This document shows, in pieces, positions 5,824 to 29,528 of a DNA stretch of 45,522 nt. Made by a program: the position numbers and the translations under genes. The stretch spans positions 1 through 45,522 of the forward strand of contig JAJDOI010000223.1 in assembly GCA_022340245.1 (NCBI GenBank), read 5' to 3'. Each line of letters begins with the position of its first letter. Position 1 is the stretch's first letter. Under the pieces are notes generated by a model that saw only the letters and a program-made list of their open reading frames with translations, was not told where the DNA came from and did no database searches. The stretch comes from Thiogranum sp. (lineage in GTDB: Bacteria > Pseudomonadota > Gammaproteobacteria > DSM-19610).

Positions 5824-6909
5824 TCAGTGGTGGATAGAACCGTCCCGGACCGGTTCATCTATGACGATATTTCTCCTTGGCCCATGACCGACCGGCAACA
5901 GGCGCACAATGCGCTTTTCACGGGCATCTACAATGGCTACCTGATCACGATCGGAAAGTGCAACCGCTGCATAGCGACCGTCAGGTGCAAAGCTGAGCCA
6001 GTAGCCTGTACCACCGAGCTGCAAATGCGCTGTTTCAGCGTAGTTGTCATGGTCCAGGCTATGAACACTCAGGTTGTGACCACAGGTTGACCAGACTTCC
6101 TTCTGGTCCGGCCGCACAGCCAGACCGTGACAATGTACCAGGTCGAACATTTTGCCGTAGCCAAGACGCAAGGATACCCGGTTCATCAGTTTTTGCACCG
6201 GCCGGAACCACCCCAGACCGATACTGTGCCGTACTGTCTTTATAACCGTACTCTGCTCTATATCCGCAACCCTGAAACCATTCACCCCGTCCACCTGCTG
6301 GAAGAGCAACTGTCCGTCGCGCGACAGGTCAAGCGGCCGCACCTGCCCGCCGAACGGGATGAAACCCGTTGCCCGGTGACCGGCCGCCACATCGACAACG
6401 GTTACACCGTGCGGGTTACCCAATGGCGACAGATACGTGTGGCGCCCGTCGCTCGATGCTTTCGCGTTGTGCGGTCGACCACCCGTGCTGATTTTTTTTA
6501 CTGTGGTTCCGGACCCGGTGTCGACGACCCAGTACTCACCATTTTTGCAGGGGACGTACAACCACTTTCCGTCGGGCGTTACAGCGATGTTCTGCGGTTC
6601 TTCGCAGGTTTGCATACGCCTCTCGATATCCAGGCTCGCCGGGTTGATCCACAGCAACTCACCGTGAGGTTGCCGGTAGCGCTCGAGCGAGACATAGATC
6701 ATCCGCTGGTCTTTCGGGACGGCGATGCCGTGCGGGTTGCGGCCGACGTCCAGACGACGCACAAGCCGGAAGTCGTCGAGATTGAAGATATGTATATCAT
6801 TGCCCCAGGCATTTAACTGCCACAGATAGGGCGTTGCCTGGGCCGCTGTTGAAGACGCCAGCACCGCCGCGAGAACTCGCAAAATCCCCCAGCCTCTTGA
6901 CACGCTCAT
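5824..6909 (-). CDS. Secreted YVTN/quinohemoprotein amine dehydrogenase-like beta-propeller protein
   Basis: Signal peptide MSVSRGWGILRVLAAVLASSTAAQA, then blade repeats such as LDVGRNPHGIAVPKDQRMIYVS, PQNIAVTPDGKWLYVPC, GGRPHNAKASSDGRHTYLS. The ORF opens at 6981; ATG 6909 gives the signal peptide. Confidence 0.75.
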   Translation of the reverse strand: MSVSRGWGILRVLAAVLASSTAAQATPYLWQLNAWGNDIHIFNLDDFRLVRRLDVGRNPHGIAVPKDQRMIYVSLERYRQPHGELLWINPASLDIERRMQTCEEPQNIAVTPDGKWLYVPCKNGEYWVVDTGSGTTVKKISTGGRPHNAKASSDGRHTYLSPLGNPHGVTVVDVAAGHRATGFIPFGGQVRPLDLSRDGQLLFQQVDGVNGFRVADIEQSTVIKTVRHSIGLGWFRPVQKLMNRVSLRLGYGKMFDLVHCHGLAVRPDQKEVWSTCGHNLSVHSLDHDNYAETAHLQLGGTGYWLSFAPDGRYAAVALSDRDQVAIVDAREKRIVRLLPVGHGPRRNIVIDEPVRDGSIHH

Positions 6910-6934
6910 CCTGTCAACACTCCCCGTTCCCGGC

Positions 6935-8464
6935 CTATCGCTTCTTGATGCCCCTGCGAACCAGTCGGCTTTTGATTGCATTTTTCACACTCCGCCCTGT
7001 TTTTCTCAGACTGCCCCGCCCTTCACTTTTGTCGGGGTTGATCGGCTCGTCCAACAGGTCCGGCCACATTTTCTCTATGAGCGCGTAAAAAGCCCGATGG
7101 CGGGGTGAACTTCTATACCTCGCGTCTATAGACAACATGGTCGTGAGCAATTCACGACAGTTGAACGGTGTAAACATATCCCGCCACGCCAGGTCAAATT
7201 CCATCTGGGTTGCAGCCAGCCAGTTACCATGTGACTGCTCCCAGCTGAAAAGATCCAGCAAATGTATATTGTAGCGTTCGCCGATTCCGCCAAGCCATCG
7301 CTGAAAGCTGTCCACCGCAAATTCGCACTCGCCCATCGATTGCAGGGTTGCGAGGTCGCGGGCGGTGATTTCACGCTTTTCCGCGTCGATCTTTTTGCGA
7401 AACGGTTCCCTGACAACCTCCGCACCGCTGCCGGTCACAACCACTTTGGTGCGCCCGAAGCGGTGCAGAATGGCTTCCACATCCTGGCCGTAATGGTCGT
7501 GTGCCAGGAACACGTTCTGTTTAAACGCCTTGCTGAATTCGGCGGACATATAAGGAAGCGCTTTGATGACCTCGCGGGAAATCCCGGCCTTGCCGAGCAC
7601 CCGTGCCGCCACCGCAATATCCTGATGGTTGTCCGGCATCCCGCCCTGCCGAACCGTAACCCCCGCAACCCCTTTGCGTATCGCGCTGCTTGCCGCGAGG
7701 ACGATGCGGCTGTCAAACCCCGCGGTCATACCGATGACAACGTCGAAGCGCGCGTGGACAGCACGCATCATACCTTGCAGTAGGCCCGCTGCCTTCTCGA
7801 TCGCCTCATCGAAACCCTCTTCCTGCAGCGCCCGATCCGGCCAATAGCGGTGGCACTGACCCGTGCACAGGTCGAGATAGTGATTGGGCAGCAGGCGCAC
7901 GATCTCCCGGAACGGCGTTGCCGTACCGGGCCAACGATATTCGCGGTGACGCCGGAACTCCAGCGAGTCAATGAATTTCTCCGCCGTGGCATCGACGCGA
8001 AGCTCGAAGAGCCATCCCAGAAGGCCCGGCTGCGACGCGACCCAAAAGCCGCGCGAACATTCGCCGGTGGTGTAAAACACCTGGCGCAGGCCCAGCGCGT
8101 CGGTGAACATCGCCTTGCGCTCAGCGTCATATGCAATGATTATCCATCGCCCCCCGCACACCGCAGTTGCCGCCATCAGGCGTTCAACGCTGGAAAACAC
8201 ATCGAACAGTGCCCGCGCGACACCGGCATTGTCCGCGCCGGGAGTCCGCGGATCGAATATCTGACCGATGACGGTGATTGACCTGGTCGCGTCCGACACC
8301 TGCTCGACAGCGATTTCCGGGTGCACGGTCAGCTTAAACGACTCATCTACCGGTACACGCTGCCAGCCTTGCAAGGCGTCGACAAACGCGCTGCCCAGGA
8401 CGAACTGGTGGCAAAACCGGTCCTTGCTGAAACTTCCCCGCAGGTCTTTTTCAATGAGTAGCAT
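6935..8464 (-). CDS. Asparagine-synthetase-like ATP-pyrophosphatase protein lacking an N-terminal Cys2 nucleophile
   Basis: PP-loop-like motif VVIGMTAGFDSRIVLAASSA and N-terminal NTN-like region (ALGLRQVFYTTG...FWVASQPGLLGWL). Start chosen at MLLIEKDL (8464), after the preceding gene's stop; ORF opens at 8509. Confidence 0.72.
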   Translation of the reverse strand: MLLIEKDLRGSFSKDRFCHQFVLGSAFVDALQGWQRVPVDESFKLTVHPEIAVEQVSDATRSITVIGQIFDPRTPGADNAGVARALFDVFSSVERLMAATAVCGGRWIIIAYDAERKAMFTDALGLRQVFYTTGECSRGFWVASQPGLLGWLFELRVDATAEKFIDSLEFRRHREYRWPGTATPFREIVRLLPNHYLDLCTGQCHRYWPDRALQEEGFDEAIEKAAGLLQGMMRAVHARFDVVIGMTAGFDSRIVLAASSAIRKGVAGVTVRQGGMPDNHQDIAVAARVLGKAGISREVIKALPYMSAEFSKAFKQNVFLAHDHYGQDVEAILHRFGRTKVVVTGSGAEVVREPFRKKIDAEKREITARDLATLQSMGECEFAVDSFQRWLGGIGERYNIHLLDLFSWEQSHGNWLAATQMEFDLAWRDMFTPFNCRELLTTMLSIDARYRSSPRHRAFYALIEKMWPDLLDEPINPDKSEGRGSLRKTGRSVKNAIKSRLVRRGIKKR

Positions 8465-8477
8465 CGAGCAGGATTCG

Positions 8478-8984
8478 CTAGGCGCTCCTGCGCATAATTC
8501 GCCAATCACCGACTATCGTTATGTCCTGGCTGGGTCCGACTTCCTCAAACCCCAGGTGCTGCATGGATGGTACCCGGCTGTTCTGCACCTCCACCCATAC
8601 CTCGGCAGCACCCTGGCGGGCCGCGAGTTCCAGCCGTTCCACATTCAGCCGCATGCCTAGTCCGTTGCCGGAGTACTCCCAGTGAACGACCAGTCGGTTG
8701 AGGACACCTATGGGAAACTGCATACGCTCCACGTATGGCCCGAAACTGCAGCGGTCCGGCACAGCCGCTTGTTCGCTGGCAATAATCAATCGCCCACTGG
8801 CTATGATATTGCCCCGGTCCTGGTATGCGACGTGCCATCCGTCATGGTCGAACTGATCGATACCGAAGCGGCTGGATGCCGCTTTGGTATCGATCACACG
8901 GCTCCAGACGGTCAGCCGAAATTTTTCAATCTCCCTCAGCATATTGATGTTGTCGCTGCCTTTGAAAATCAGCGGATCTTTCAT
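8478..8984 (-). CDS. GNAT-like acetyltransferase
   Basis: Fold-level pattern: GNIIASGRLIIASE, IGVLNRLVVHWEYSGNGLGMRLNVERLELAARQGAAEVWVEVQNSRVPSMQHLGFEEVG resembles GNAT motifs A/B. Confidence 0.6.
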   Translation of the reverse strand: MKDPLIFKGSDNINMLREIEKFRLTVWSRVIDTKAASSRFGIDQFDHDGWHVAYQDRGNIIASGRLIIASEQAAVPDRCSFGPYVERMQFPIGVLNRLVVHWEYSGNGLGMRLNVERLELAARQGAAEVWVEVQNSRVPSMQHLGFEEVGPSQDITIVGDWRIMRRSA

Positions 8985-9736
8985 GACCAGAACCTCAATC
9001 GGCCATCTTCGAAGGCACTGATAAACGAGCCGAAGGCAAGCCGATCCCGGGCTTCCCCAACGGCGTGATAGTTCCGCGAATTGATGATAATCACTTCGCC
9101 GGGCTGAACGTCCACGCTCAACATGCGGGCGCCGCCAACCACCGCCTCAGTGTAAAAATAGCTGTCCGGAACCTGGTGGACATCATCTTCCGGGCTCCAC
9201 AGCTTATCCCAGAGGAGCAGCTCACCGCCTTGCTCGGATACACGCAGGTACAGGTTCCAGGCCAGCTGGGCCGAGGCTGCCCCAATCGCCCAGCCGTCCG
9301 AATCCTGTGCAGCGAAGTCAACATGAATGGGGCTGAAGCCGTTGCGCAACTTGCCGTTGCCGGCAAAATAGCTCCCCAGACCCGGTTCGGACATGATTTC
9401 GGCGTCAAAACCGACCTCACTCAGCTTGCCAATCAGCCGTTGTACCGGTGGAAAGCTCTGCGCGAATATGCGGGAAAAATTCTCGTCCAGCTGCCTGGCG
9501 AGGGCAAAGTAAGCCTGTTTGGAGGCACGCACGCCCTGCTCGTACTGGCTGATGCCAAGCCTCGCCACTTGCTTGATGCTGCTGGTCCGGCAGGCATGTT
9601 CGAGGAGCCCGGCCAGCAGCCGTTGCATTTCCTCATGCGTAGCAAAGTTGTCGATACGAACAGCCGGAATACGACTCTCAATCAGAGCCCGCAGCGAGGC
9701 GTGGCTGAGCGAATGAATCTGAGTATCTTCCCACAT
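8981..9736 (-). CDS. 2-oxoglutarate/Fe(II)-dependent oxygenase-like protein
   Basis: Putative facial triad H-x-D in SPIHVDFAAQD and distal His in INSRNYHAVGEARDRLAFGSFIS with a downstream Arg; overlaps the next gene by 4 bp (ATGA type). Confidence 0.65.
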   Translation of the reverse strand: MWEDTQIHSLSHASLRALIESRIPAVRIDNFATHEEMQRLLAGLLEHACRTSSIKQVARLGISQYEQGVRASKQAYFALARQLDENFSRIFAQSFPPVQRLIGKLSEVGFDAEIMSEPGLGSYFAGNGKLRNGFSPIHVDFAAQDSDGWAIGAASAQLAWNLYLRVSEQGGELLLWDKLWSPEDDVHQVPDSYFYTEAVVGGARMLSVDVQPGEVIIINSRNYHAVGEARDRLAFGSFISAFEDGRLRFWS

Positions 9737-9986
9737 CGTGTCACATGGAGACTTGTCACATTAAAAAAGCTATCGTTTTTCATCGACAGCGCCAAAAAAC
9801 ATGTCGGCACATAGCAGATTTAGTGCACTCCATTTTCACCCACAGGCAGGCGTGGCGCGCCAATCTGCGCTCGCATCCGATTGGTGCCGTCCGGGCGGCC
9901 AGCCGCAGCGCTTTGAGTCAATGGCAACGCCGCTACTCGAAAAGCGTGCAAGACAGCGACCTGATATTCGCATAAGGAAGGGTATT

Positions 9987-14725: not shown

Positions 14726-17056
14726 CTATGATGTCAGGGTTGCAAACAGAACCGGCAGCTTCTCCGGCAGTTTCTGTACATTATCCACTATGGTGTAGTT
14801 ATTCATCCCGAAGATGCGTTTAACGTAGTTGTCGGCATTGGGATCGAGCGTCAGGCAGTAACTCAGGACGCCCTTGCTGTACAGCTCTTCAACGGCCTTC
14901 TTGGTGTCGTGGCGCAGATGTTGAGGATCGCGTTCGTCGATATCAGCGGGCTCGCCATCGGTGATGAGCAGCAACAGCTTTCTGCGTTCGGGCTGCTTGA
15001 GCAAATGCTGCCCCGCATGACGTATGGCTGCGCCCATGCGCGTGGACAAACCACCCCGCATACCTGCCAGGCGCGATTTAGCCTCATCGTCAAAGTGTTG
15101 ATTAAAATCCTTGAAGCGATAGTACTGTACATCATGGCGGCCATCCGAGGCGAAACCGTGAAGTGCAAACGGGTCGCCAATCCCATTGATCGCCGTAGCC
15201 ACCAGCGTCGATGCCTCTCTTGTAAGCTGCAGAACGGTCTTGTCGGAGCCTTCCACGGTTTCATTGGTGGATTCGGACAAATCCATCAACACCACGACGG
15301 CCAGGTCGCGGGTTTTGAGGACATTACGCATGGTGATGCGAGGATTGGGCTGTTCACCCATGCGGATAGCGACCATGGCATCGATGGCGGCATTGATGTC
15401 GATTTCGTCGCCGTCTTCCATGTTGCGCACGCGTTGAACACCTTCCGGCGTGAGCAGGTCGATGATCTGTTTGATGCGGTGTGCCACCGGTTTGTACTCG
15501 GTGATGATCTTTTCGATCTCTTCCGGATCACCCTTGGGCTGGCGACGTTCGTAAAGTGTCGCCCAATCGGGGCGGTGCAGCTGAATCTGGTAGTCCCACT
15601 CCTGGTAATGAAAGGGTTCCGATACCGATTCCTTGCCCCACATTTCGTTGAAACTGACACCCTCGTCTTCGTAGGGAAACAGCTCGGTTTCGCAAGTCCA
15701 GATCTCCTGGGCGTCGTCACCAGCCAGCTCGCAGTCGAGTTCGTTGATCATTTCCATGACATTGACCTTGCGCCGCACCTGGCGTTGGCTGGCGGGCAGA
15801 TAGTCCACGCCCTGACTCCAGTCGAACTCCTCGAACTCCCAAACGAAGCGATTGTCATCGCGGTACGGTATGCGGATACGCTCGAGGATGCGCAGGCTGG
15901 GGACTTCCCGGCGCGCAGCCAACAGGTTGAACAGATCGACACCCACGTTCCAGGAGAACTGGTTGTTATCCTGCTGTTGCTCAATGCCGGCGTGGAAACG
16001 CTCGGCCAGGGCATTCAATTCTTCGTCATCGCAGCGTTCCGACGAATCCAGCAGCATCAGCGCAAAGTGCTCCAGTACCGGAATAGTCGGATGTTCCGCA
16101 TCCTCCTCATACTCAAGCATCAGCAATGAACGCCAGAGTTTTTTCAGGCCGGGAAATTCTTTTATCGCCTTGTACTCGATGCGGGCGTCTTCGGCCATAC
16201 CGATAAAAAACATCTGTGCCGGACTCAGCTGCTCGGCGGAAATGCGCGACGAGGTATAACAGACATGCGCGGCCATATGCGCCGAGGTCGCGCGGTACAA
16301 CTCCAGACCGGTTATGTCCCCGATCGCATCGACGGCATCCGGCATGTGCACGATGTTCTTGTCGATATAGGGCCTGAAATCGGTGTAGTCAGCGCCCGTC
16401 GGGCGCAAAAAGAAATCACGCCCCCACAGGGCGCGCAAATAAAAATTGAGTTTGCGCTGGGTATCGATAAACAGCGTGCCGCGCCGTTCTTTTTGCAGCA
16501 CGGCAAGACTGTCCTGGGATTCAAGGTTGAAATAGGACGTCAGGTTCTGGAAGTCCCGGCGATAGGCCTGTGCCCCGAAATTGGCCCAGCGGCGCAGTCC
16601 ACTCAGGGTCAGCTTGGACAGCAGTTCGTCGATATGACCCAGCATCGGGCGCAGGCCACGCGCCGCGGTCGCCGAGAGCTGGTGGATCAGCGTCAGGTAA
16701 CCGCGTAACAGCTCGGCATCGCCCAGACGTCGCGAGGCAGTCGGCAGGCTGTCGAACAACAGCGTAATGACCTCTCCCGAGGTCATCGATGAAAGTTTCA
16801 TAGCCGCACTGATGCAGTCGGTAATAATGTCCTCACCGCATTCCTTGGCGACCAGCGGCATCTGCTGCAGATAGGAAATCACCAGGCCTTTGCCGCGGCC
16901 GAGGTTTGCAAGGCTCTTGGCACCTTCCAGATAATTCTCCAAACCGGTCGGCGACATGACATGCGAGGCCTCCGTAAAGGTGCCTTCCAGCACGTCGCGG
17001 ATTTCCGGCGCGATACCTTCCAGATATTTTTCGTAGTCTTCTAGTTTGACGGCCAT
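14726..17056 (-). CDS. cbbO: CbbO, VWA-domain RuBisCO activase component
   Basis: MAVKLEDYEKYLEGIAPEIRDVLEG N-terminus, C-terminal VWA MIDAS VVLMDLSESTNET, position downstream of cbbLS and cbbQ. Confidence 0.92.
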   Translation of the reverse strand: MAVKLEDYEKYLEGIAPEIRDVLEGTFTEASHVMSPTGLENYLEGAKSLANLGRGKGLVISYLQQMPLVAKECGEDIITDCISAAMKLSSMTSGEVITLLFDSLPTASRRLGDAELLRGYLTLIHQLSATAARGLRPMLGHIDELLSKLTLSGLRRWANFGAQAYRRDFQNLTSYFNLESQDSLAVLQKERRGTLFIDTQRKLNFYLRALWGRDFFLRPTGADYTDFRPYIDKNIVHMPDAVDAIGDITGLELYRATSAHMAAHVCYTSSRISAEQLSPAQMFFIGMAEDARIEYKAIKEFPGLKKLWRSLLMLEYEEDAEHPTIPVLEHFALMLLDSSERCDDEELNALAERFHAGIEQQQDNNQFSWNVGVDLFNLLAARREVPSLRILERIRIPYRDDNRFVWEFEEFDWSQGVDYLPASQRQVRRKVNVMEMINELDCELAGDDAQEIWTCETELFPYEDEGVSFNEMWGKESVSEPFHYQEWDYQIQLHRPDWATLYERRQPKGDPEEIEKIITEYKPVAHRIKQIIDLLTPEGVQRVRNMEDGDEIDINAAIDAMVAIRMGEQPNPRITMRNVLKTRDLAVVVLMDLSESTNETVEGSDKTVLQLTREASTLVATAINGIGDPFALHGFASDGRHDVQYYRFKDFNQHFDDEAKSRLAGMRGGLSTRMGAAIRHAGQHLLKQPERRKLLLLITDGEPADIDERDPQHLRHDTKKAVEELYSKGVLSYCLTLDPNADNYVKRIFGMNNYTIVDNVQKLPEKLPVLFATLTS

Positions 17057-17143
17057 AACACACTTCCACACGCCGGCAAGGGCCGGGAGCAAACTGGGCG
17101 GTGTTCTGCCACTAACGCCGGCTCCCGCGCGACCGGGAGTTTG

Positions 17144-17953
17144 TTAACCAAAGAACGTCTGTACCGCTGCGTTCAACGTATCGCGCATGTCCGGATCATC
17201 GGTCAATGGCGTTACCATGGTCATGGTGCAAGCCGCGACGGGCTCGACACCCTTATGGACCAACTGGCCGGCGTACACGAGCAAACGGGTTGAGATACCT
17301 TCATCGAGACCGTGGCCCTTGAGGTTACGTGCACGGTGCGCGATTTGCACCAGCTTGTGTGCGGTATCCTTATCCACACCTGACTCCTGGGCAACGATAT
17401 CCGTCTCGGTCGCTTCTTCCGGATAATCAAAATCCAGTCCGCCAAAACGTTGCTTGGTGGATTCTTTCAGATCCTTCATCAGGCTCTGGTAGCCGGGGTT
17501 GTAGGAGATCACCAGCTGAAAATCCTTATGGGCCTCGATCAACTCACCCTTCTTGTCCAGCGGCAAGGTGCGGCGATGGTCGGTCAGCGGGTGGATCACG
17601 ACCGTGGTGTCCTGGCGCGCCTCCACGACTTCATCGAGGTAACAGATCGCACCGAGACGTGCAGCGGTAGTGAGCGGCCCGTCCTGCCATTTGGTGCCTT
17701 CCTTGTCCAGCAGGAAGCGTCCAACCAGGTCAGAGGCAGTCATGTCTTCGTTACAGGCAACGGTGATCAGGGGGCGGCCCAGCTTCCAGGCCATGTACTC
17801 GACAAAGCGCGACTTGCCACAACCGGTTGGCCCCTTGAGCATCATCGGCATGCGCGCGTTATAGGCTGCTTCATACAGCGCGATTTCGTCGCCGACAGCC
17901 TTATAGAACGGTTCCTTCTTTATCTTGTATTGCGTGATATCAACAGCGGACAT
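17144..17953 (-). CDS. cbbQ: CbbQ, MoxR-type AAA+ RuBisCO activase
   Basis: Walker [39 protein letters not shown]-like Walker B region, adjacent to cbbO. Confidence 0.95.
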
Positions 17954-18002
17954 TTCTCACCTTCCGGATGCTTGTAATAGGGAATCGATGGCTTTCGCGC
18001 CA

Positions 18003-18329
18003 TCAAACCTCATCTTCTGTTTCGATTTCACCACTCCAGCCCGCCGCTCGCGCGCGCTCAATCGCCGCACCGTGAATTCTCTCGTGACGCTCGCGCAACT
18101 CGGCAGGCAGATGACTGACCAGGCAGCCATACTTGTCCCATTCGTCGTTGACCTTGTGCAGCAGGGCATCGATCCTGGCCAGGTTCCAGCCGGCGCACGT
18201 CTCGGTTTCCGGGATCAACCCGAATACCCAGGCATCACGTATCAACTTGCCGATGGACGTCATCCCGCCAAGCATTTCCTTGTCAATACCGACGTATGTC
18301 TGTGTCTGTGGTTTTGTCATATGTCCCAT
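18003..18329 (-). CDS. Uncharacterised small protein encoded between cbbS and cbbQ
   Basis: 108-aa ORF MGHMTKPQTQTYVGIDKEMLGGMTSIGKLIRDAWVFGLIPETETCAGWNLARIDALLHKVNDEWDKYG..., co-directional with cbbS and cbbQ; alternative ATG at 18320. Confidence 0.7.
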   Translation of the reverse strand: MGHMTKPQTQTYVGIDKEMLGGMTSIGKLIRDAWVFGLIPETETCAGWNLARIDALLHKVNDEWDKYGCLVSHLPAELRERHERIHGAAIERARAAGWSGEIETEDEV

Positions 18330-18339
18330 TTCTTATAAG

Positions 18340-18377
18340 AAAAGCCCCTGGCCGATTCAAATCGGGCAGGGGCTTTT
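18340..18377 (-). terminator. Intrinsic-terminator-like hairpin between cbbS and the small ORF
   Basis: Arms AAAAGCCCCTG (18340-18350) and CAGGGGCTTTT (18367-18377) are perfectly complementary, with inner CCGATT/AATCGG; on the minus strand it is followed by TTTTCTT. Confidence 0.8.
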
Positions 18378-18401
18378 TAATGCGACGAACCTGCCGGTGG
18401 A

Positions 18402-18761
18402 TTAAACAGACTTACCGCGGTAAACAACCATGGCGGTCCCTGCAGACTGTGCAAAGTTATCAAAGCCGAGCAAACGAACATGGTTGTTTGGATGCGCTTT
18501 GTGACAGGCTTCCAATTCAGCAAGGATTGCGTCCACATCAGTTTCGCCGAACATGGGTAATTTCCACATGTACCAGTAGTTGCTGGTCGCGTTTTCCGGC
18601 TCGGTATGCTCGATGCCCGGGTTCCAGCCTTTGTCAACGATATACTGAATCTGGGCACGCGTTGATTCTTTGCTCAACGGCGGCAGGTATGAAAAGGTTT
18701 CATACTTACGGCTCTGTTCAGCGTCGCTCAGGCTTGATTTATAATCTTGTACACCACTCAT
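18402..18761 (-). CDS. cbbS: RuBisCO small subunit (form I)
   Basis: [82 protein letters not shown]. Confidence 0.97.
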
Positions 18762-18809
18762 TTTAAAATCCTCTGAATAAATTCGAACTGTTCACTGCAG
18801 GTAGGGGCG

Positions 18810-18841
18810 GTGTCCCGCCGCGATCACTCGCGGTGGGACAC
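18810..18841 (-). other. Intercistronic stem-loop between cbbL and cbbS
   Basis: GTGTCCCGCCGCGA (18810-18823) / TCGCGGTGGGACAC (18828-18841), 14-bp stem with one non-Watson-Crick position and a TCAC loop; no U-run after it on the minus strand. Confidence 0.75.
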
Positions 18842-18894
18842 TGGATTCGCGCCGATGGTCGGCGTTTATGCCCGACGGTTTTCGGGTGATCCTA

Positions 18895-20316
18895 CTATTT
18901 ATGTGAAACGTCCAGCTTGTCGACGGTGTCGAATTCGAATTTGATTTCTTTCCAGGTTTCCATCGCAGCAGCCAGTTCCGGACTGGACTTGGCAGCCTTG
19001 GTAAGAATGTCCTTGCCTTCCTTCTCAAGCTCGCGACCGGAGTTACGGGCTTCGACGCAGGCTTCAACCGCAACACGGTTGGCAGCTGCACCGGCAGCAT
19101 TACCCCAGGGGTGACCCAGCGTACCGCCACCGAACTGCAGGCAGGAGTCATCACCGAAGATGCTGACCAGCGCAGGCATATGCCATACATGGATACCACC
19201 GGATGCAACCGGGATAACGCCAGGCATCGAGCCCCAGTCCTGATCGAAGAACAGACCACGTGAACGGTCTTCCTTGATGAAGGAATCGCGCATGGTATCG
19301 ATCCAGCCCAGGGTGGCTTCGCGGTCGCCTTCCAGCTTGCCGACCACGGTACCGGAGTGCAGGTGGTCACCACCGGACAGACGCAGACACTTGGTCAGTA
19401 CGCGGAAGTGGATACCGTGGTGGGGGTTGCGGTCGAGCACGGCATGCATGGCACGGTGAATGTGCAGCAGGATACCGTTGTTCTGGCACCACTGAGCCAG
19501 CATGGTGTTGGCAGAGAAACCGCCGGTCAGGAAGTCGTGCATGATGATCGGTGCGCCCAGTTCTTTCGCGTATTCGGCACGACGCATCATTTCGTCAGCG
19601 GTCGGAGCGGTAACGTTCAGGTAGTGACCTTTACGCTCACCGGTTTCGGCTTCGGCCTTATGGATAGCTTCCATAACGAAGTCAAAACGGTGTCTCCAGC
19701 GCATGAACGGCTGGGAGTTAACGTTCTCGTCGTCCTTGGTGAAGTCGAGACCACCACGCAGACCTTCGTAGCAGGCGCGACCGTAGTTCTTGGCGGACAG
19801 ACCGAGTTTCGGCTTGATGGTGCAGCCCAGCAGCGGTCGACCGTACTTGTTCAGGATGTCGCGCTCGACCTGGATACCCTGGGGTGGTCCATTACAAGTC
19901 AGCACGTAAGCGATCGGGAAGCGGATGTCTTCCAGACGCAGGGCACGCAGCGCCTTAAACCCGAATACGTTGCCAACCAGTGAGGTCAGAACGTTTACAA
20001 CAGAACCTTCTTCGAACAGGTCGATTGGGTAGGCAACAAAGGCGTAGAAGCAGGTGTCATCACCCGGTACGTCTTCGATGGCGTAAGCGCGGCCCTTGTA
20101 ATAATCCAGGTCAGTCAGCAGGTCGGTCCACACGGTAGTCCAGGTACCGGTTGAAGATTCTGCAGCAACCGCAGCCGCAACCTCTTCACGGGGCACACCC
20201 GGCTGAGGGGTAATCTTGAAACACGCCAGGAGGTCGGTGTCCTTGGGCGTGTAGTCAGGCATCCAGTAAGTTTCGCGGTACTCTTTAACGCCCGCGTTGT
20301 AGCTCTTCACTGCCAT
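18895..20316 (-). CDS. cbbL: RuBisCO large subunit, form IA
   Basis: 473 aa; [85 protein letters not shown], lid/loop [11 protein letters not shown]. Confidence 0.98.
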
Positions 20317-20491
20317 CGTCGTCTCCTAACGTTGATTTAGTTGTAGTGGTCCGGCGATACAACTGTCGAACCCGGTCCGCTGGGGACCGTTTGCGAATCT
20401 GTTCACCGGCACATTAGCCCGCCGGCAAATTGGAAGTGCGATCCTAGCCCCATCGACCCATTATTAAAAGTAAGTATTTATGATCAAGAGA

Positions 20492-20506
20492 ATAAGAGAT
20501 GCTTAT
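20492..20506 (-). promoter_or_regulatory. Candidate CbbR/LysR-type binding site upstream of cbbL
   Basis: ATAAG-AGATG-CTTAT inverted repeat contains the LysR T-N11-A signature; it lies in an AT-rich stretch about 176 bp upstream of the cbbL start. Confidence 0.45.
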
Positions 20507-20610
20507 GATTGCAGGCGCGGCAACACTCGCCTGCCGCACCCACGGGAAGGATAGCAACACTATGAATCGTCGACGAAATTCAGGCTGAGTGGCTACATAC
20601 CGCCGTGTTG

Positions 20611-21489
20611 TTACGACTCGTCGTCGCCCAGTTCCTCGCGCAATTCTTTCTGCTCCCGGCGGCGGGCAACCAGTGCGTCGTAGGCATCGGCTTGCTTTTT
20701 GATGGTTTCTTCGCCAAACATGATCTGCAGAATCATGCGTTCACCGAATTTCAACAGCGCGAGGTCATCCGTATAAAGCTCTTGACGGGTGGCGTCATCG
20801 ATGTCAAAGGTAGCGCTGAACCCCTCGCTCTTGGCGAATTCACGGAACCGGTCGAGATCGTAGCAGGCCATGAAGAAAAACTGCAGGCTGGAGCGTGACA
20901 GTGCGCCGATCGCCGGACCCGCGGATTTCATTTTCAGGATCAGCTGGCGCCACCCGCTGCCGTGCTCGTCATAGTCCTCGAGACCCTGCTCCTTGCGATA
21001 GTCGCGAATGGTGATTTCGCGTTCCTCGAAATGCCCCTTGCAGTGGTCTTCCTGCACCATGGCATAGGACATACGCTCAAAGTTTTCGTCGGCCCGTCGC
21101 GTCGACAGCAGACCGACCGGGTAATACCGGCACGCGGTGGGCCGGTCTTCGTAAACACTACAGCCTTCATCGGTCATGAACTGGCACTCGGTCCCGCCTT
21201 CCACGGGCTCCATCTTGACGCCGGCAATGCTGTTCTTGTTGAACTCAAAGGGGTAAGTGTACTGTTTGAGGAATTCGCCGGACGTAAGGCCCAGGCGTTT
21301 CTTCAAGCGCAGGATGTCGTAGGGCGTCAGCGTGATATCGATATTGCGGCAACAGGCGTTGAAGCATTCGATTCCCTTGTAACAGTTGAACTTGATGACA
21401 TGGCTTTCATCAAACTGCTCCGGCACCACCGGACTCTCGACAAACGGGGATTCCTTGATATCGATCTTTACATCAGCCATGTCATTCAC
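20611..21489 (-). CDS. YkgJ-like cysteine-cluster (Zn/Fe-binding) protein
   Basis: Cys pattern KFNCYKGIECFNACCRNIDITLTPYDILRLKKRLGL ... TECQFMTDEGCSVYEDRPTACRYYPVG matches the CxxCxxxCC-type family. Confidence 0.8.
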   Translation of the reverse strand: MNDMADVKIDIKESPFVESPVVPEQFDESHVIKFNCYKGIECFNACCRNIDITLTPYDILRLKKRLGLTSGEFLKQYTYPFEFNKNSIAGVKMEPVEGGTECQFMTDEGCSVYEDRPTACRYYPVGLLSTRRADENFERMSYAMVQEDHCKGHFEEREITIRDYRKEQGLEDYDEHGSGWRQLILKMKSAGPAIGALSRSSLQFFFMACYDLDRFREFAKSEGFSATFDIDDATRQELYTDDLALLKFGERMILQIMFGEETIKKQADAYDALVARRREQKELREELGDDES

Positions 21490-21580
21490 CTCTCAAGCCC
21501 TTTACAACAAGGGTAACACACCCAGGTCAGAGCACATTTCTCACGAATACTGGGAAAAACTCTGCTCTGCCCCTGACAAA

Positions 21581-21616
21581 GAAAAAGTCCGGGCACCCTG
21601 GGGTACCCGGACTTCT
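21581..21616 (-). terminator. Intrinsic terminator downstream of aprA
   Basis: AAGTCCGGGCACCC (21585-21598) / GGGTACCCGGACTT (21601-21614), 14-bp stem with one wobble; minus strand continues into TTTTTC, about 30 bp after the aprA stop. Confidence 0.85.
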
Positions 21617-21645
21617 CGGCCTTCAAGAGACTGTCAAGGAAAGAC

Positions 21646-23628
21646 TTACTTGAACAGCTTGCTCTTGTCTACCAGATCAACGTGCTTACGCTTGAAGCAG
21701 GTCCAGTTCTGCGTCTTTTGATCGTAGACAGAGTTCACGAAGCATTTCCAGTTATCTTCATCGACAAAGTTCTTGTCCATGCGATAGTAGAAGCCCGGGT
21801 AACGGGATTCCTCACGGAACTGAATGTGTTTCATGTGAGCTTCGGCCGTCAGGATGCGGTGGTAGTTCTCCCAGGCACGCAGCAGTTCATGCAGGTCCTT
21901 GGCTCGCATCTTCATGGCGTCTTCTTTCAGCATATCCAGCTTCTCGCTGGCCACTTCCAGCATTTTGCTGTTGGTGGTGTAGTAAGTCGCGACACCCGCC
22001 ACGTATTCGTCCATGATCTTCTGCAGACGGAACTGCAGCATCTTGGGCGTGATGTAGTGCGGGTTGATGTCGATCGCGGTGGTGTAGTCCTTGTGCTCCA
22101 GGTAGGTCTTCACCGGACGGTAGATATCTTCCACCAGCTCCTCGACCGGGCGGTCCAGTTCAGGTTTCAGATCCTTGTTGTCCAGGCAGTACTTGACCAT
22201 CGACTTGGCACACATACGACCTTCAGCGTGCGAACCGGAAGAGAACTTGTGGCCGGATGCGCCCACGCCGTCACCGGCGGTGAACAGACCCTTGACGGTG
22301 GTCATGGAACGATAACCCCAGCTCCAACCCCTCGGCAGGTGCTCGGGTATACCATCGTACTCTTCATCCGTCGGCGCACCCAGGTCGGTCGGACCGGACA
22401 CCCAGATACCGCAGCAGCCGGAGTGCGAACCCAGCAGGTAGGGCTCGGTCGGCATCAGTTCGGAGTTCTTCTTCTCCGGTTCGATGTTCTCGCCAACCCA
22501 GATACCGCACTGGCCGACACACATGTCGAGGAAGTCTTCCCACGCTTCGGCTTCCAGGTGTTTGACTTCACGAGGAGACAGGGTTTCGCGCAGGTTAGCA
22601 AGGGCAGTCACGGTGTCCATGTAGATGGGACCACGACCTTCCTTCATTTCCTTCAGCATGAGGTGGTTACGCAGGCAGGAAGCCGGAACGGCAGCATGGC
22701 CGTAGGGAGGATAGTCGTCCAGCATGTCCTTGTTGCGGTCCATGTACACTTCACCGAAGGCGTTGGTGGCCTTGGATTTGAACAGCAGGAACCAGGCGCC
22801 GACCGGACCGTAACCGTCTTTGAAACGGGTCGGGACGAAGCGGTTTTCCATCATGGTCAGCTCGGCACCCGCCTGTGCGGCCATCGCATAGGTGGAACCG
22901 GCATTCCAGACGGGGTACCAGGCACGACCCTGACCTTCACCGACGGAGCGGGGACGGAACAGGTTGACGCAGCCGCCGGCAGCCAGCAGGCAGGCCTTGA
23001 ACTTGTAAACGACAACTTTGTGGTCACGCACGGAGAAACCGACAGCGCCGGCGATGCGGTGCGGATCGTTCTTGTCGTTGACCAGTTCGACGACGAAGAT
23101 ACGCTCTTCGATGTTGTCGATACCCAGAGCCTTCTTGGCCGCTTCAGCGACGATCCATTTGTAGGATTCACCGTTGATCATGATCTGCCACTTACCGGAA
23201 CGCACCGGCTTGCCGCCATCCTTAAGCGGGGTCATGCCCTTGGAACCGTCGTGGCGCTCGCCGTTTTCGTCAGTCTTCCAGATCGGCAGACCCCATTCTT
23301 CGAACAGGTGCACCGATTCGTCGACGTGACGACCCAGGTCGTAGGCCAGGTCGTCGCGGGTGATACCCATCAGATCGTTGGAGACCATGCGGGCATAGTC
23401 AGCCGGATCCTGCTCGGTACCGATGTAGGTGTTGATCGCGGACAGGCCCTGCGCCACGGCACCGGAACGGTCCATGGCGGCCTTGTCGACCAGCTTGATT
23501 TTCAGGTCGGTGCCTTCGGCCCAGCGCATAATTTCGAACGCCGCACCGCAGCATGCCATACCACCGCCGATAAGAAGAATATCAACTTCTTCTTCGACGA
23601 CTTCAGGATTTCCGAATTCCCCTGCCAT
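21646..23628 (-). CDS. aprA: Adenylylsulfate (APS) reductase alpha subunit
   Basis: 660 aa flavoprotein: EEEVDILLIGGGMACCGAAFEIMRWAEG, DRSGAVAQGLSAINTYIG, GDGVGASGHKFSSGSHAEGR; adjacent to aprB. Confidence 0.97.
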   Translation of the reverse strand: MAGEFGNPEVVEEEVDILLIGGGMACCGAAFEIMRWAEGTDLKIKLVDKAAMDRSGAVAQGLSAINTYIGTEQDPADYARMVSNDLMGITRDDLAYDLGRHVDESVHLFEEWGLPIWKTDENGERHDGSKGMTPLKDGGKPVRSGKWQIMINGESYKWIVAEAAKKALGIDNIEERIFVVELVNDKNDPHRIAGAVGFSVRDHKVVVYKFKACLLAAGGCVNLFRPRSVGEGQGRAWYPVWNAGSTYAMAAQAGAELTMMENRFVPTRFKDGYGPVGAWFLLFKSKATNAFGEVYMDRNKDMLDDYPPYGHAAVPASCLRNHLMLKEMKEGRGPIYMDTVTALANLRETLSPREVKHLEAEAWEDFLDMCVGQCGIWVGENIEPEKKNSELMPTEPYLLGSHSGCCGIWVSGPTDLGAPTDEEYDGIPEHLPRGWSWGYRSMTTVKGLFTAGDGVGASGHKFSSGSHAEGRMCAKSMVKYCLDNKDLKPELDRPVEELVEDIYRPVKTYLEHKDYTTAIDINPHYITPKMLQFRLQKIMDEYVAGVATYYTTNSKMLEVASEKLDMLKEDAMKMRAKDLHELLRAWENYHRILTAEAHMKHIQFREESRYPGFYYRMDKNFVDEDNWKCFVNSVYDQKTQNWTCFKRKHVDLVDKSKLFK

Positions 23629-23674
23629 TGCAAATACCTCTAAACCCTATCTATAACTACTGTGATCCGCGATC

Positions 23675-24142
23675 TTACAGTTTGATCAGCTCGCTGCGGT
23701 CGCCCGCGCGATAGCCGTTTTCCTGGTTGAAGAAACCCGGTTCTTCGATCTTGGCCATGTCGGCAGCAGGCTTGCCTGCATACGGATCGATAGAGCCTTC
23801 GGGCGTGGTACGGATCGGGAATTTGAAACGCTTCATGGTGCCGTTACGGAACTTGATGGTCCACATGATGGAGTCGGAACCACGCAGCGGCTGCACGGAA
23901 CCGCCAAGCGGTACGATGTCAGCGTAGTGACGCGCTTCGATAGCCTGCTGCGGGCAGATCTTGACGCAGGAGTAACACTCCCAGCACTGTTCCGGTTCCT
24001 GGTTGAAGGCACGCATGGCATGGCCGGTTTCGGAACCGTCCTTGTCGAGTTTCATCAGGTCGTGGGGGCAGATGTACATGCAGGCGGTTTTATCCTGGCC
24101 TTTGCAGCCATCGCACTTATCAGTACGCACAAATGTTGGCAT
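23675..24142 (-). CDS. aprB: Adenylylsulfate reductase beta subunit
   Basis: MPTFVRTDKCDGCKGQDKTACMYICPHDLMKLD and ECYSCVKICPQQAIEARHYADIVPLGGSVQPLRG, two 4Fe-4S motifs. Confidence 0.97.
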   Translation of the reverse strand: MPTFVRTDKCDGCKGQDKTACMYICPHDLMKLDKDGSETGHAMRAFNQEPEQCWECYSCVKICPQQAIEARHYADIVPLGGSVQPLRGSDSIMWTIKFRNGTMKRFKFPIRTTPEGSIDPYAGKPAADMAKIEEPGFFNQENGYRAGDRSELIKL

Positions 24143-24216
24143 GGTTCTATCTCCGCTTCACTTTACTGTACGTGAGTGATATATCATCCGCTGACAGCCA
24201 ACGGCCTCTAGCGTCG

Positions 24217-25434
24217 TTACTTGGCCGAGTGACCCGACATTTTGATTTCGACCTTGTCCTCGTCCTTGAGGCTGCCGTAGTAAGCGCGCAGGATTTCCAG
24301 TACCTCGGGACGCGAGAACTTTTCCGAAACCTCTTCACCCTCGGACAGCGCCTTGCGCAGCTTGGTGCCCGAGAGCAGGATGCGGTCGGAGCCTTCGTGC
24401 GGGCAGGTCTTCATGGAAGCCATGCCGTCGCACTTGTTGCACCAGAAGGTCCAGTCGATCTTCAGCGGCTGGGTCTCCAGGGCGTCGGCGGGGATTTCAT
24501 CAAAAATGTGGTGGGCGTCAAACGGGCCGTAATAGTCGCCAACACCGGCGTGGTCGCGGCCGACTATCTGGTGTGAGCAGCCATAGTTCTGGCGGAACAG
24601 CGCGTGCAACAGGGCTTCGCGCGGGCCTGCATAACGCATGTCCAGCGGATAACCGGCCTGGATCACGGTGTTGTCGGAGAAATAGTTTTCGATCAGCGTG
24701 CCGATGGCGTTGCTGCGCACGTCGGCCGGAATGTCGCCGGGCTTCAATTTGCCCAGCAGCGAGTGAATCAGTACGCCGTCGAGGGTTTCGATTGCGATCT
24801 TCGCCAGGTATTCGTGCGAGCGGTGCATCGGGTTACGTGTCTGAAAGGCAGCGACGGTCTTCCAGCCACGCTTTTCAAACTCGGCACGGGTCTGTGCAGG
24901 CGTCATGAACTGGTCACCGTATTGCTCGGGGAACCCGCCCAGCGACAGCACCTTGATCGGGCCGGCCAGGTTGACGTCGCCCTGCTCCATCACCATCTTG
25001 ACGCCCGGGTGCTCGACGTCGGTGGTCTTGTAGACCATCATGCACTCGTGCTTTTTGTCGATGCTGTATTTTTCGGTAACTTTCATGGTGGCGAGAATCG
25101 TGTCGCGCTCGCCGTCGTACAGCGCAATGTCGTCGCCTGCGCTGATCTGGTCGGCGGCGGCGCCGTCGGTCGACAGCGTCACGGGGATCGGCCAGAACAG
25201 TCCGTTGGCCATCTTCATGCCGTCGCACACACCTTCCCAGTCGGCGTGCGTCATGAATCCATCCAGAGGTGTAAAACCGCCGATACCCATCATGATGATG
25301 TCGCCGGCTTCGCGCGAAGAGATGTTTATCCGCGGCAGCGTGGCAGCGCGTTCGGTTTCAGCAGCGAGGGCAGCGCCCTCGAGAAGCAACGGCTTGAGAT
25401 CGCCGCCACCGTGTGGCTTCACAAGACTGGACAT
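24217..25434 (-). CDS. sat: Sulfate adenylyltransferase (dissimilatory ATP sulfurylase)
   Basis: [54 protein letters not shown]. The ORF opens at 25572; ATG 25434 fits the family N-terminus. Confidence 0.96.
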
Positions 25435-25764
25435 GAGACTCCTTACCAACCGGGTATATATAAGGTTATTGAGCGCGATAGTTCGACGCACGAGGCGCCC
25501 CGCAGGGGGTGTTACCTTAATGATGTGATGAGTGAAATCCAACAGTTTTAATTTACTCAAGCATAAAGCCACCTTATTCTTTGCTTTGTGCTATAAGCTA
25601 TACGCAAGCTTTTGTTATCACTTACTAAAAACTTACTTAGTATATTAGCATATTATGATACCTTATAAGGCTTTCAGTAACGCTAATTGGCCATTGTCGG
25701 CGATACTCGAGTAAATTACTGGGCCTTTTGGCGGCGCCAAGCGTCCATACAGAGATCAGTGACT

Positions 25765-28677
25765 ATGTCCAACCCGCTGCATGACCCGTTGTCCAAGGCA
25801 CTCGATGAGCGCAGCCGCATCGAGGTCAAGAACACCACCTGCTACATGTGTGCCTGCCGTTGTGGCATCCGGGTCACGTTGCGCGACGGCGAAGTCCGCT
25901 ATATCCAGGGAAACCCCGATCACCCGCTGAACAAGGGTGTCATCTGCGCCAAGGGCTCGTCCGGTATCATGAAGCAATATTCGCCGGCTCGGCTCACCAA
26001 GCCCCTGATGCGCAAGCCGGGCAGCGACCGTGGCGACAATGATTTCGTGGAAATCTCCTGGGAGCAGGCCTTCGGCATGCTCGAAGAGCGGCTCGCGGAA
26101 ATCCGCACCACCGACCCGAAAAAGTTCGCGCTGTTCACCGGCCGCGATCAGATGCAGGCGCTCACCGGGCTGTTTGCCCGGCAATTCGGCACACCGAACT
26201 ACGCCGCCCACGGCGGCTTCTGCTCGGTAAACATGGCCGCCGGCATGATTTACACCATCGGCGGCTCCTTCTGGGAGTTCGGCGGCCCGGATCTGGATCG
26301 CGCCAAGCTGTTTGTCATGATCGGCACCGCCGAGGATCACCACTCCAACCCGCTGAAAATGGCGCTGTCGAAATTCAAACGCCAGGGCGGCAAATTCATA
26401 TCCATTAATCCCATCCGCACTGGCTACTCGGCCATTGCCGATGAATGGATCCCCATCAAGCCGGGCACCGACGGCGCGCTGTTCCTGGCGCTGACCAACG
26501 AGATCATCCGCCAGGGCCTGTACGACCGCGACTACCTGGTGCAATACTCGAATGCCGCCGAACTGGTGAACATGGACGAGAAATCCACCGAGTGCGGTAT
26601 GTTCGTGCGCTTCGAGGTGCCACCCGAAGAAGGCTGCTTCGACCCCCAGAACAAGCTGTGGTGGGACCGCGAACTCGACAAGCCGATCTCCACCCATACC
26701 GAAGGCGCCGACCCCTACCTGCTGGGCGAGTTCAAACTCGACGACGGCACGCCGGTAAAACCCGCTTTTCAACTGCTGGTCGATCGCGTCAAGCAGTACA
26801 GCGCGGACTGGGCGTCCAAGATCACCGGTATTCCGGTTGAAACCATCCGACGCCTGGCCCACGAAATGGGCATCACCGCACGCGACGAAAAAATCGAACT
26901 GCCGATCGCCTGGACCGACGTGTGGGGTAACGAGCACGACCATGTCACGGGCAACCCCGTGGCTTTCCATGCCATGCGCGGCCTGGCGGCGCATTCCAAC
27001 GGCTTCCAGACGATTCGCGCCATGTCCATCCTGATGAGCGTGCTGGGCACCATCGACCGGCCGGGCGGTTTCCGCCACAAGGCGCCGTTTCCACGGCCGA
27101 TCCCGCCCTGCGCAAAAACGCCCACGGGACCGGAAGGCGTGCAGCCCGACACACCGCTCAACGGCATGCCACTCGGCTGGCCCGCCGACCCCGACGACCT
27201 GTTCGTCGACGATCGCGGCGAACCGGTGCGCATCGACAAGGCGTTTTCCTGGGAATACCCGCTATCGGTTCACGGCCTGATGCACAACGCCATTACCAAT
27301 GCCTGGCGTGGTGACCCCTACCGCATAGACACCCTGTTGATCTTCATGGCCAACATGGCCTGGAACTCGTCGATGAACACCTCGCGGGTGCGCGAAATGC
27401 TCAACGACAAGGATGAAAACGGCGACTACAAGATCCCCTTCCTGGTGGTCGCCGACGCCTTCCAGTCCGAAATGGTGGCCTACGCCGACCTGGTGCTGCC
27501 GGACACCACCTACCTGGAACGCCACGACTGCATGTCCATGCTCGACCGGCCGATTTCCGAGTTTGAGGGTCCGGTGGACTCGGTGCGCGTCCCGGTGGTA
27601 CCGCCCAAGGGCGAGTGCAAGCCCTTCCAGGAGGTACTGATCGAGCTGGGCTCACGCCTCGGGCTGCCCGCGTTCACCCACGACGACGGCAGCCGCAAGT
27701 TCCGCGACTACCCCGATTTCGTGGTCAACTACGAAACCGCGCCGGACTCGGGTATCGGCTTCCTCGCCGGCTGGCGCGGCAAGGGTGGCGAAAAGTTCAT
27801 GAAGGGCGAACCCAATCCCAAGCAGTGGGAAATGTACGAAAACAACAACTGCGTGTTTCACTACGAATTGCCCAAGTCCTACCAGTACATGCGCAACTGG
27901 AACCAGGGTTACCTGGAATGGGCCAAGCGCCACAGCCTTACGCGCTACGCCGAACCCATCAATATCCATATCTACTCCGAAGTGCTGCAGAAGTTCCGTC
28001 TCGCCGCGCAAGGCAAATCCGACGGCAAGCAGCCGCCTGCGCGGCTGCGCAAGCGTATTGAAACGCACTTCGATCCGCTGCCCTTCTATTCGCAGCCGCT
28101 GGAATCGCAGGTTACCGATCTGCACAAATACCCGCTCAACGCCGTTACCCAGCGGCCCATGGCCATGTACCACTCGTGGGATTCGCAGAATGCCTGGCTG
28201 CGGCAGATCCACACCTACAACTTTCTGCACGTCAACAGCAAGACGGCGCGCGAAGCCGGAATCGAGGACGGCGCCTGGATGTGGGTGGAATCCATGCACG
28301 GCAAAGTGCGCTGCCTGTGTCGCCACTCCGAGTCGGTCGAGCCCGGCACAGTATGGACCTGGAACGCCATCGGCAAGGTCGCCGGTGCCTGGGGCCTGGA
28401 CAGGGATGCCAACGAATCGCAACAGGGTTTCCTGCTCAACCACCTCATCAGCGAGGAACTGCCGCCCTGCGACGACGGCCGACACCTGTCCAACTCCGAC
28501 CCGCTGACCGGTCAGGCCGGCTGGTATGACGTGCACGTGCGCATCTACCCGGCGGGTGCCGACGAACCCAGGGTCACCTCTCCCCAGTTCGCTCCGCTGC
28601 ACACGGTACCCGGGCAGTCGCAGGAGAAAAAGCGCGGCCGCTGGCTGACCTACTTCGCCGGCAGGAAAAAGGTTTAA
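25765..28677 (+). CDS. soeA: SoeA-like molybdopterin oxidoreductase (cytoplasmic-type sulfite dehydrogenase catalytic subunit)
   Basis: MSNPLHDPLSKALDERSRIEVKNTTCYMCACRCGIRV (Fe-S cluster motif), NPDHPLNKGVICAKGSSGIMKQYSPARLTKP; followed by Fe-S and NrfD-type subunits. Confidence 0.9.
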   Translation: MSNPLHDPLSKALDERSRIEVKNTTCYMCACRCGIRVTLRDGEVRYIQGNPDHPLNKGVICAKGSSGIMKQYSPARLTKPLMRKPGSDRGDNDFVEISWEQAFGMLEERLAEIRTTDPKKFALFTGRDQMQALTGLFARQFGTPNYAAHGGFCSVNMAAGMIYTIGGSFWEFGGPDLDRAKLFVMIGTAEDHHSNPLKMALSKFKRQGGKFISINPIRTGYSAIADEWIPIKPGTDGALFLALTNEIIRQGLYDRDYLVQYSNAAELVNMDEKSTECGMFVRFEVPPEEGCFDPQNKLWWDRELDKPISTHTEGADPYLLGEFKLDDGTPVKPAFQLLVDRVKQYSADWASKITGIPVETIRRLAHEMGITARDEKIELPIAWTDVWGNEHDHVTGNPVAFHAMRGLAAHSNGFQTIRAMSILMSVLGTIDRPGGFRHKAPFPRPIPPCAKTPTGPEGVQPDTPLNGMPLGWPADPDDLFVDDRGEPVRIDKAFSWEYPLSVHGLMHNAITNAWRGDPYRIDTLLIFMANMAWNSSMNTSRVREMLNDKDENGDYKIPFLVVADAFQSEMVAYADLVLPDTTYLERHDCMSMLDRPISEFEGPVDSVRVPVVPPKGECKPFQEVLIELGSRLGLPAFTHDDGSRKFRDYPDFVVNYETAPDSGIGFLAGWRGKGGEKFMKGEPNPKQWEMYENNNCVFHYELPKSYQYMRNWNQGYLEWAKRHSLTRYAEPINIHIYSEVLQKFRLAAQGKSDGKQPPARLRKRIETHFDPLPFYSQPLESQVTDLHKYPLNAVTQRPMAMYHSWDSQNAWLRQIHTYNFLHVNSKTAREAGIEDGAWMWVESMHGKVRCLCRHSESVEPGTVWTWNAIGKVAGAWGLDRDANESQQGFLLNHLISEELPPCDDGRHLSNSDPLTGQAGWYDVHVRIYPAGADEPRVTSPQFAPLHTVPGQSQEKKRGRWLTYFAGRKKV

Positions 28678-28680
28678 ACC

Positions 28681-29412
28681 ATGACTCAACTCGCCCTGGT
28701 AATCGACCTGAACGTTTGCGTTGGCTGTCACGCCTGCGTCACCAGCTGCAAGGAGTGGAACACCTCCGGCACGGCCGGGTACATGGCCGACATGAACCCC
28801 TTCGGCCATGATCCGACCGGCACCTTCTTCAACCGGGTACAGACTTTCGAAATCGGGGAGTTCCCGAATACCGAGACGGTACACTTCCCCAAGAGCTGCC
28901 TGCACTGCGAAGACCCGCCGTGCGTACCCGTGTGCCCCACCGGCGCGAGTTACAAACGCGACGAAGACGGTATCGTGCTGGTCGACTACGACAAGTGCAT
29001 CGGCTGCAAGTACTGTTCCTGGGCCTGCCCCTACGGGGTACGCGAAGTCGACGAACACCAGAAAGTGATGAAAAAGTGCACCCTGTGCGTCGACCGCATC
29101 TACGACCGTTCGTTGCCGGAGAACGAACGCAAGCCGGCCTGCGTCATGGCCTGCCCGACCAGTGCGCGCCTGTTCGGCGACGTCAACGATCCGGACTCAG
29201 AGGTGGCGGAAGCGATTCGAGAACGCGGCGGCTACCAGCTGATGCCCGAGTGGGGCACCAAACCCGCCAACCACTACCTGCCCCGGCGCAGGACCCGAAT
29301 CACCATTCACGAAGACGAACTCACGCGTGTCGACAATCCGCTGAACAAAGAGCGTCAACTGCCCATGCCCGACAAGGATGCGCCGACCCTCGACGACGTC
29401 ACCTCGTGGTAA
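28681..29412 (+). CDS. soeB: SoeB-like 4Fe-4S ferredoxin subunit
   Basis: LNVCVGCHACVTSCKEWN, CLHCEDPPCVPVCPTGASYKRDEDGIVLVDYDKCIGCKYCSWACPYG. Confidence 0.92.
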   Translation: MTQLALVIDLNVCVGCHACVTSCKEWNTSGTAGYMADMNPFGHDPTGTFFNRVQTFEIGEFPNTETVHFPKSCLHCEDPPCVPVCPTGASYKRDEDGIVLVDYDKCIGCKYCSWACPYGVREVDEHQKVMKKCTLCVDRIYDRSLPENERKPACVMACPTSARLFGDVNDPDSEVAEAIRERGGYQLMPEWGTKPANHYLPRRRTRITIHEDELTRVDNPLNKERQLPMPDKDAPTLDDVTSW

Positions 29413-29528
29413 TTTGAGTAACGACCGAGAGTATTTGAACATGCCCGACTTCGGCAACATGGCGCCGCCCGCGGCTGACATACTCCGCCCCCCTGGAAAG
29501 CAAGGCAACCGGTATCAGGAGCTAAACC

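Follow-up and report, generated by a model that had tools for sequence, protein, structure and literature searches.

The enzymes and pathways closest to the locus analysed here resemble it in part. WelO5 is a halogenase that lacks the Asp ligand, CarA and BLS have no working glutaminase, and we know of no case in which WelO5 or SadA is encoded beside a GNAT and an asparagine-synthetase-like gene. SadA hydroxylates N-substituted amino acids (PMC3665795), and CarA and BLS, like the synthetase described below, are found beside a 2-oxoglutarate (2OG) oxygenase (PMC6097109). In the Wbp/Vim linking-sugar pathway, an asparagine-synthetase-type and an N-acetyltransferase-like enzyme likewise act on one compound (PMC7468200). 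The nitrilobacillin pathway (PesC) also has an asparagine-synthetase-like enzyme that works with oxidative hydroxylases, the substrate there being a ribosomal peptide (PMC13060819); no precursor peptide was noted at the present locus, in an inspection not aimed at small ORFs. The locus presented here encodes a 2OG oxygenase, a GNAT and an asparagine-synthetase-like enzyme, together referred to as the trio. The enzymes themselves are of known types; as a set they appear to be undescribed, and no account of the gene set was found in the open-licence literature.

The window, meaning the whole stretch of 45,522 nucleotides that was analysed, makes up a single contig in an assembly of 3.4 Mb and 238 contigs. 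The features of the locus are the following.

9769..9790, minus strand: terminator-like stem and T run between the cytochrome c and oxygenase genes (consensus scan)
8981..9736, minus strand: 2-oxoglutarate/Fe(II) oxygenase of the WelO5/SadA group, 251 aa (Pfam and Foldseek)
8478..8984, minus strand: GNAT-family N-acyltransferase, 168 aa (Pfam GNAT families; orthologues at the same position in two other genomes)
6935..8464, minus strand: asparagine-synthetase-like ATP-dependent synthetase, 509 aa (AsnB profile match and Foldseek)
5824..6909, minus strand: secreted YVTN/YncE-type beta-propeller (Pfam and NCBIfam propeller models)

All four minus-strand reading frames listed in the initial annotation are present, with the spacing it claimed: the GNAT start and the oxygenase stop share 4 bp (ATGA), and gaps of 13 bp and 25 bp separate the GNAT from the synthetase and the synthetase from the propeller (taking ATG 6909 as the propeller start). 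Its assignment of the four folds (oxygenase, GNAT, asparagine synthetase and propeller) is borne out by Pfam and by profile comparison. A single transcript for the four genes is plausible from the sequence. The terminator-like stem upstream of the oxygenase suggests that the trio is separate from the transcript of the cytochrome c gene and does not continue it; the stem comes from a consensus scan that yields not many more such sites here than in shuffled sequences. Further terminator-like matches within the cluster are weak and lie inside coding sequence. No Rfam match to a structured RNA leader was found anywhere in the window.

We compared the locus with a sample of 20 genomes from the same order. 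The oxygenase is present in exactly three of them, namely the source genome (G000), G014 and G016, and close GNAT orthologues occur in the same three. The synthetase is found in 5/20, one of these being a distant match of only 26%, and the source genome carries a second copy, 39% identical to that of the trio. Order and orientation of the three genes are identical in G000, G014 and G016, which belong to one genus, apparently Thiogranum, and the 4-bp overlap between oxygenase and GNAT is kept in all three; the G016 contig ends inside the synthetase gene. The trio is flanked by cytochrome c and propeller genes in the source genome, by SulP-type and CxxCH-motif genes in G014, and in G016 by a PhnD-like gene and one for a large sensor (names in the latter two genomes assigned by eye). 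The trio proteins are 48-67% identical in pairs, while their genes are saturated or nearly so at synonymous sites, and the three trio synthetases form one clade with full support. When relatives were compared for an empty site, the genes flanking the trio proved not to be syntenic. Upstream of the oxygenase, the three genomes share no convincing promoter motif, a negative weakened by sequences that are out of register at the start codon. Outside the genus, the trio was found at none of 13 synthetase loci from a scan of 85,000 genomes, which used a single peptide pattern and may miss divergent copies, and no close oxygenase was found in the class and phylum samples.

The conserved unit is thus the first three genes, which cluster beyond chance. 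The initial annotation had proposed a system of four genes, to be refuted if neighbourhood analysis found them apart elsewhere. The trio passes this check because its genes do co-occur in other genomes, with oxygenase, GNAT and synthetase in the same order in three genomes, the source genome included; the propeller is not supported as part of this pattern. The picture of closely packed genes that look co-transcribed and encode an oxygenase, an acyltransferase and a synthetase of the ATP-dependent, amide- or lactam-forming type is upheld.

The oxygenase matches the Pfam family WelO5 (PF22814; E 2.2e-12, with 47.5 bits where the cut-off is 27), and in Foldseek its best match is WelO5, followed by SadA. 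Family and fold are therefore shared with these two enzymes, although the identity to each is only about 17%. The metal-binding triad, His138-x-Asp140...His224, is intact and has the HxD...H form also seen in SadA; the triad and Arg232, the 2OG-binding Arg, are invariant in six relatives. In the halogenase form the Asp ligand is replaced. Because Asp140 is present, the enzyme should be of the hydroxylase type and hydroxylate rather than halogenate its substrate. The GNAT scores above the cut-offs of Acetyltransf_10 and Acetyltransf_1, and all three trio orthologues match general GNAT families as well as Acetyltransf_5. The action of SadA on N-substituted amino acids fits the presence of an N-acyltransferase partner.

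On a Pseudomonas plasmid, a full-length relative of the oxygenase adjoins proC, with an ornithine cyclodeaminase nearby, and distant relatives in two unrelated genomes (L056:4300-5869 and L058:4842-6452) adjoin AlaX-type tRNA-editing genes, as if these were keeping a free hydroxy-amino acid from tRNA charging. Together with the substrates of SadA, these neighbours point to an amino-acid-like substrate for the trio oxygenase. At a further locus (L057:2880-7098), two genes come after an oxygenase relative; by eye one resembles an aromatic amino acid lyase and the other an acyl-activating enzyme, possibly a small pathway.

The synthetase-like protein (P0003) has no notable match in Pfam or NCBIfam. 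Profile comparison of its 20-member family with AsnB gives an E-value of 9e-13. In a Foldseek search with the predicted model (pLDDT 90.7), carbapenam and beta-lactam synthetases come first and AsnB close behind; the values for the former (E 2.8e-16, TM ~0.57) are near those for AsnB itself. CarA and BLS are the best fold matches, at 13-15% identity. Across 20 relatives, none of the N-terminal positions that are conserved is a Cys, and the glutaminase nucleophile is thus missing. The loop aligned with the ATP-binding SGGxDS of AsnB reads TAGxDSR, with Asp and Ser kept. Opposite the catalytic Lys of AsnB, in a C-terminal region where the alignment is weak, no conserved Lys was found, so chemistry identical to that of AsnB should not be assumed, and formation of amides by the trio enzyme is not assured. 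Like the Asp and Ser of the loop, many other polar positions, such as Glu349, Trp408-Glu409 and Asn435-Cys436-Arg437, vary little or not at all between phyla.

In several phyla, the genes around synthetase relatives encode glycosyltransferases, AsnB, sulfotransferases and polysaccharide exporters. Glycosyltransferase families top the Pfam count for 66 neighbouring proteins at ten loci, and plasmid-borne relatives in E. coli and Natrinema have a similar polysaccharide-type setting; the relative at L022 is an exception. Beside the trio itself, no glycosyltransferase or sugar-nucleotide gene was found in any of the three genomes. The earlier remark that no polysaccharide partner lies nearby is therefore true locally but misleading, since most synthetase relatives are in polysaccharide loci. 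On this distribution, a polysaccharide-locus synthetase family seems to have been recruited into a stand-alone cassette, the trio. Proteins that are FemAB-like by eye and have no Pfam match come after the synthetase relatives at two loci (L019:6989-10568 and L017:6784-10370); L019 has two of them in tandem, and L017 also has a proline-dehydrogenase-like gene, again named by eye. Ahead of the second synthetase copy of the source genome (L015:216-3861) is a gene for a 663-aa protein that begins with an NHL propeller and whose C-terminal part appears glycosyltransferase-like by eye.

We hypothesize, with a probability of roughly 0.4, that the trio is a stand-alone operon of three enzymes that act on one amino-acid-like substrate by N-acylation, hydroxylation and ATP-driven amide formation. 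Gene order, conservation, folds, iron triad and the loss of the glutaminase Cys are observed; the common substrate, the order of steps and the product are what we infer. In the proposed scheme, the GNAT would N-acylate the amino-acid-like substrate, the WelO5/SadA-type oxygenase would hydroxylate an unactivated C-H bond with 2-oxoglutarate, and the synthetase would adenylate a carboxylate with ATP and couple it to an amine, giving an amide or a lactam. Since the synthetase's own glutaminase site is missing, the amine would belong either to a second molecule or to the one that carries the carboxylate. The product may plausibly be a small molecule. The hypothesis is supported by the kept gene order, the differing flanks, the near-saturated synonymous sites and the fully supported synthetase clade, as well as by the triad and fold of the oxygenase, the substrates of SadA, the fold of the synthetase and its missing N-terminal Cys, and the amino-acid and AlaX-type genes near oxygenase relatives. 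The substrates assigned to the GNAT and the oxygenase are predictions from fold alone, the synthetase relatives mostly point to glycans, which counts against an amino-acid reading, and no genes for substrate supply, export or resistance were found beside the trio.

The main alternative, suggested by the setting of the synthetase relatives, is decoration of a cell-surface glycan by the trio, which we consider possible but less likely. In that case the synthetase would amidate a uronic acid or attach an amino acid to it, the GNAT would acylate an amino sugar, and the oxygenase would hydroxylate the appended acyl or amino-acid group. Glycan loci harbour synthetase relatives in several phyla, including those on the E. 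coli and Natrinema plasmids, the FemAB-like proteins that follow other relatives fit as well, and there is a precedent in the AsnB-type WbpS and the N-acetyltransferase-like VimA, which build an amino-acid-modified uronamide (PMC7468200). However, none of the three trio genomes has a glycan gene adjoining the trio, and the trio oxygenase's own relatives lie outside glycan loci. WbpS-type proteins are full amidotransferases that retain the glutaminase half, whereas the trio synthetase does not, and the Wbp/Vim pathway, unlike the trio, includes genes for sugar nucleotides and lacks a 2OG oxygenase. A pathway of the lactam or beta-lactam type, in which the synthetase closes a ring that the oxygenase modifies as in clavam and carbapenem biosynthesis, is improbable. 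Such a synthetase paired with a 2OG oxygenase follows the logic of those pathways (PMC6097109), and carbapenam and beta-lactam synthetases are the top fold matches, but fold ranking among asparagine-synthetase relatives is a weak guide to reaction. The trio oxygenase is moreover of another type, with CarC and clavaminate synthase not among its listed fold matches, and neither a CarB- or CEAS-like supply gene nor a self-resistance gene was noted adjoining the trio.

It is less probable still that the synthetase-like protein has become a binding or regulatory remnant, leaving acylation and hydroxylation as the only chemistry of the operon. The altered ATP loop and the lack of a conserved Lys at the AsnB position would fit such a loss, but the retained Asp and Ser of the loop and the many polar positions conserved across phyla argue for an active enzyme. 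The initial annotation had included the propeller as a member of the system; we regard such a four-gene unit, in which the secreted propeller would bind or carry the product, as unlikely. The propeller lies on the same strand after a gap of 25 bp, and propeller-type proteins occur near two other synthetase relatives, at L015 (NHL repeat, source genome) and L023 (DUF4915), but these match families other than those of the trio's neighbour (YncE and Cytochrom_D1 in Pfam). In G014 a different secreted-looking CxxCH protein stands behind the trio and there is no propeller orthologue, while in G016, where the contig stops in the synthetase, the sole clear relative in the order (a 30% match) is on a different contig from the trio. 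We therefore dropped the propeller as a core member for want of conservation, and it is best treated as a local neighbour, with one other genome readable at this position. Its reading frame, which stops at 5824, runs in frame up to 6981 and so overlaps the synthetase gene; the start at 6909 opens straight onto a signal-peptide-like stretch.

Returning to the stand-alone operon, we tentatively suggest that surface-polysaccharide loci of several phyla were where a glutaminase-less asparagine-synthetase family, outside Pfam, evolved. One sulfur-oxidizer lineage would then have recruited it, together with a GNAT and a SadA-like hydroxylase, for the synthesis of an undescribed N-acyl hydroxy-amino-acid amide or lactam. 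To our knowledge, few natural products are known from autotrophic sulfur bacteria, in which the trio would constitute a minimal, self-contained enzyme set. The synthetase relatives would represent a widespread family of predicted amide-forming enzymes, encoded in surface-polysaccharide loci and largely missed by Pfam and NCBIfam. As an operon of three genes, the trio is simple to express and test.

A defence system was considered and rejected, PADLOC having returned only a generic 2OG match. Elsewhere in the window, positions 14726-30506 look by eye like a region for carbon fixation and sulfur oxidation, with CbbO/CbbQ, RuBisCO-like and adenylylsulfate-reductase-like genes and a molybdenum oxidoreductase set, which is ordinary for a sulfur autotroph.
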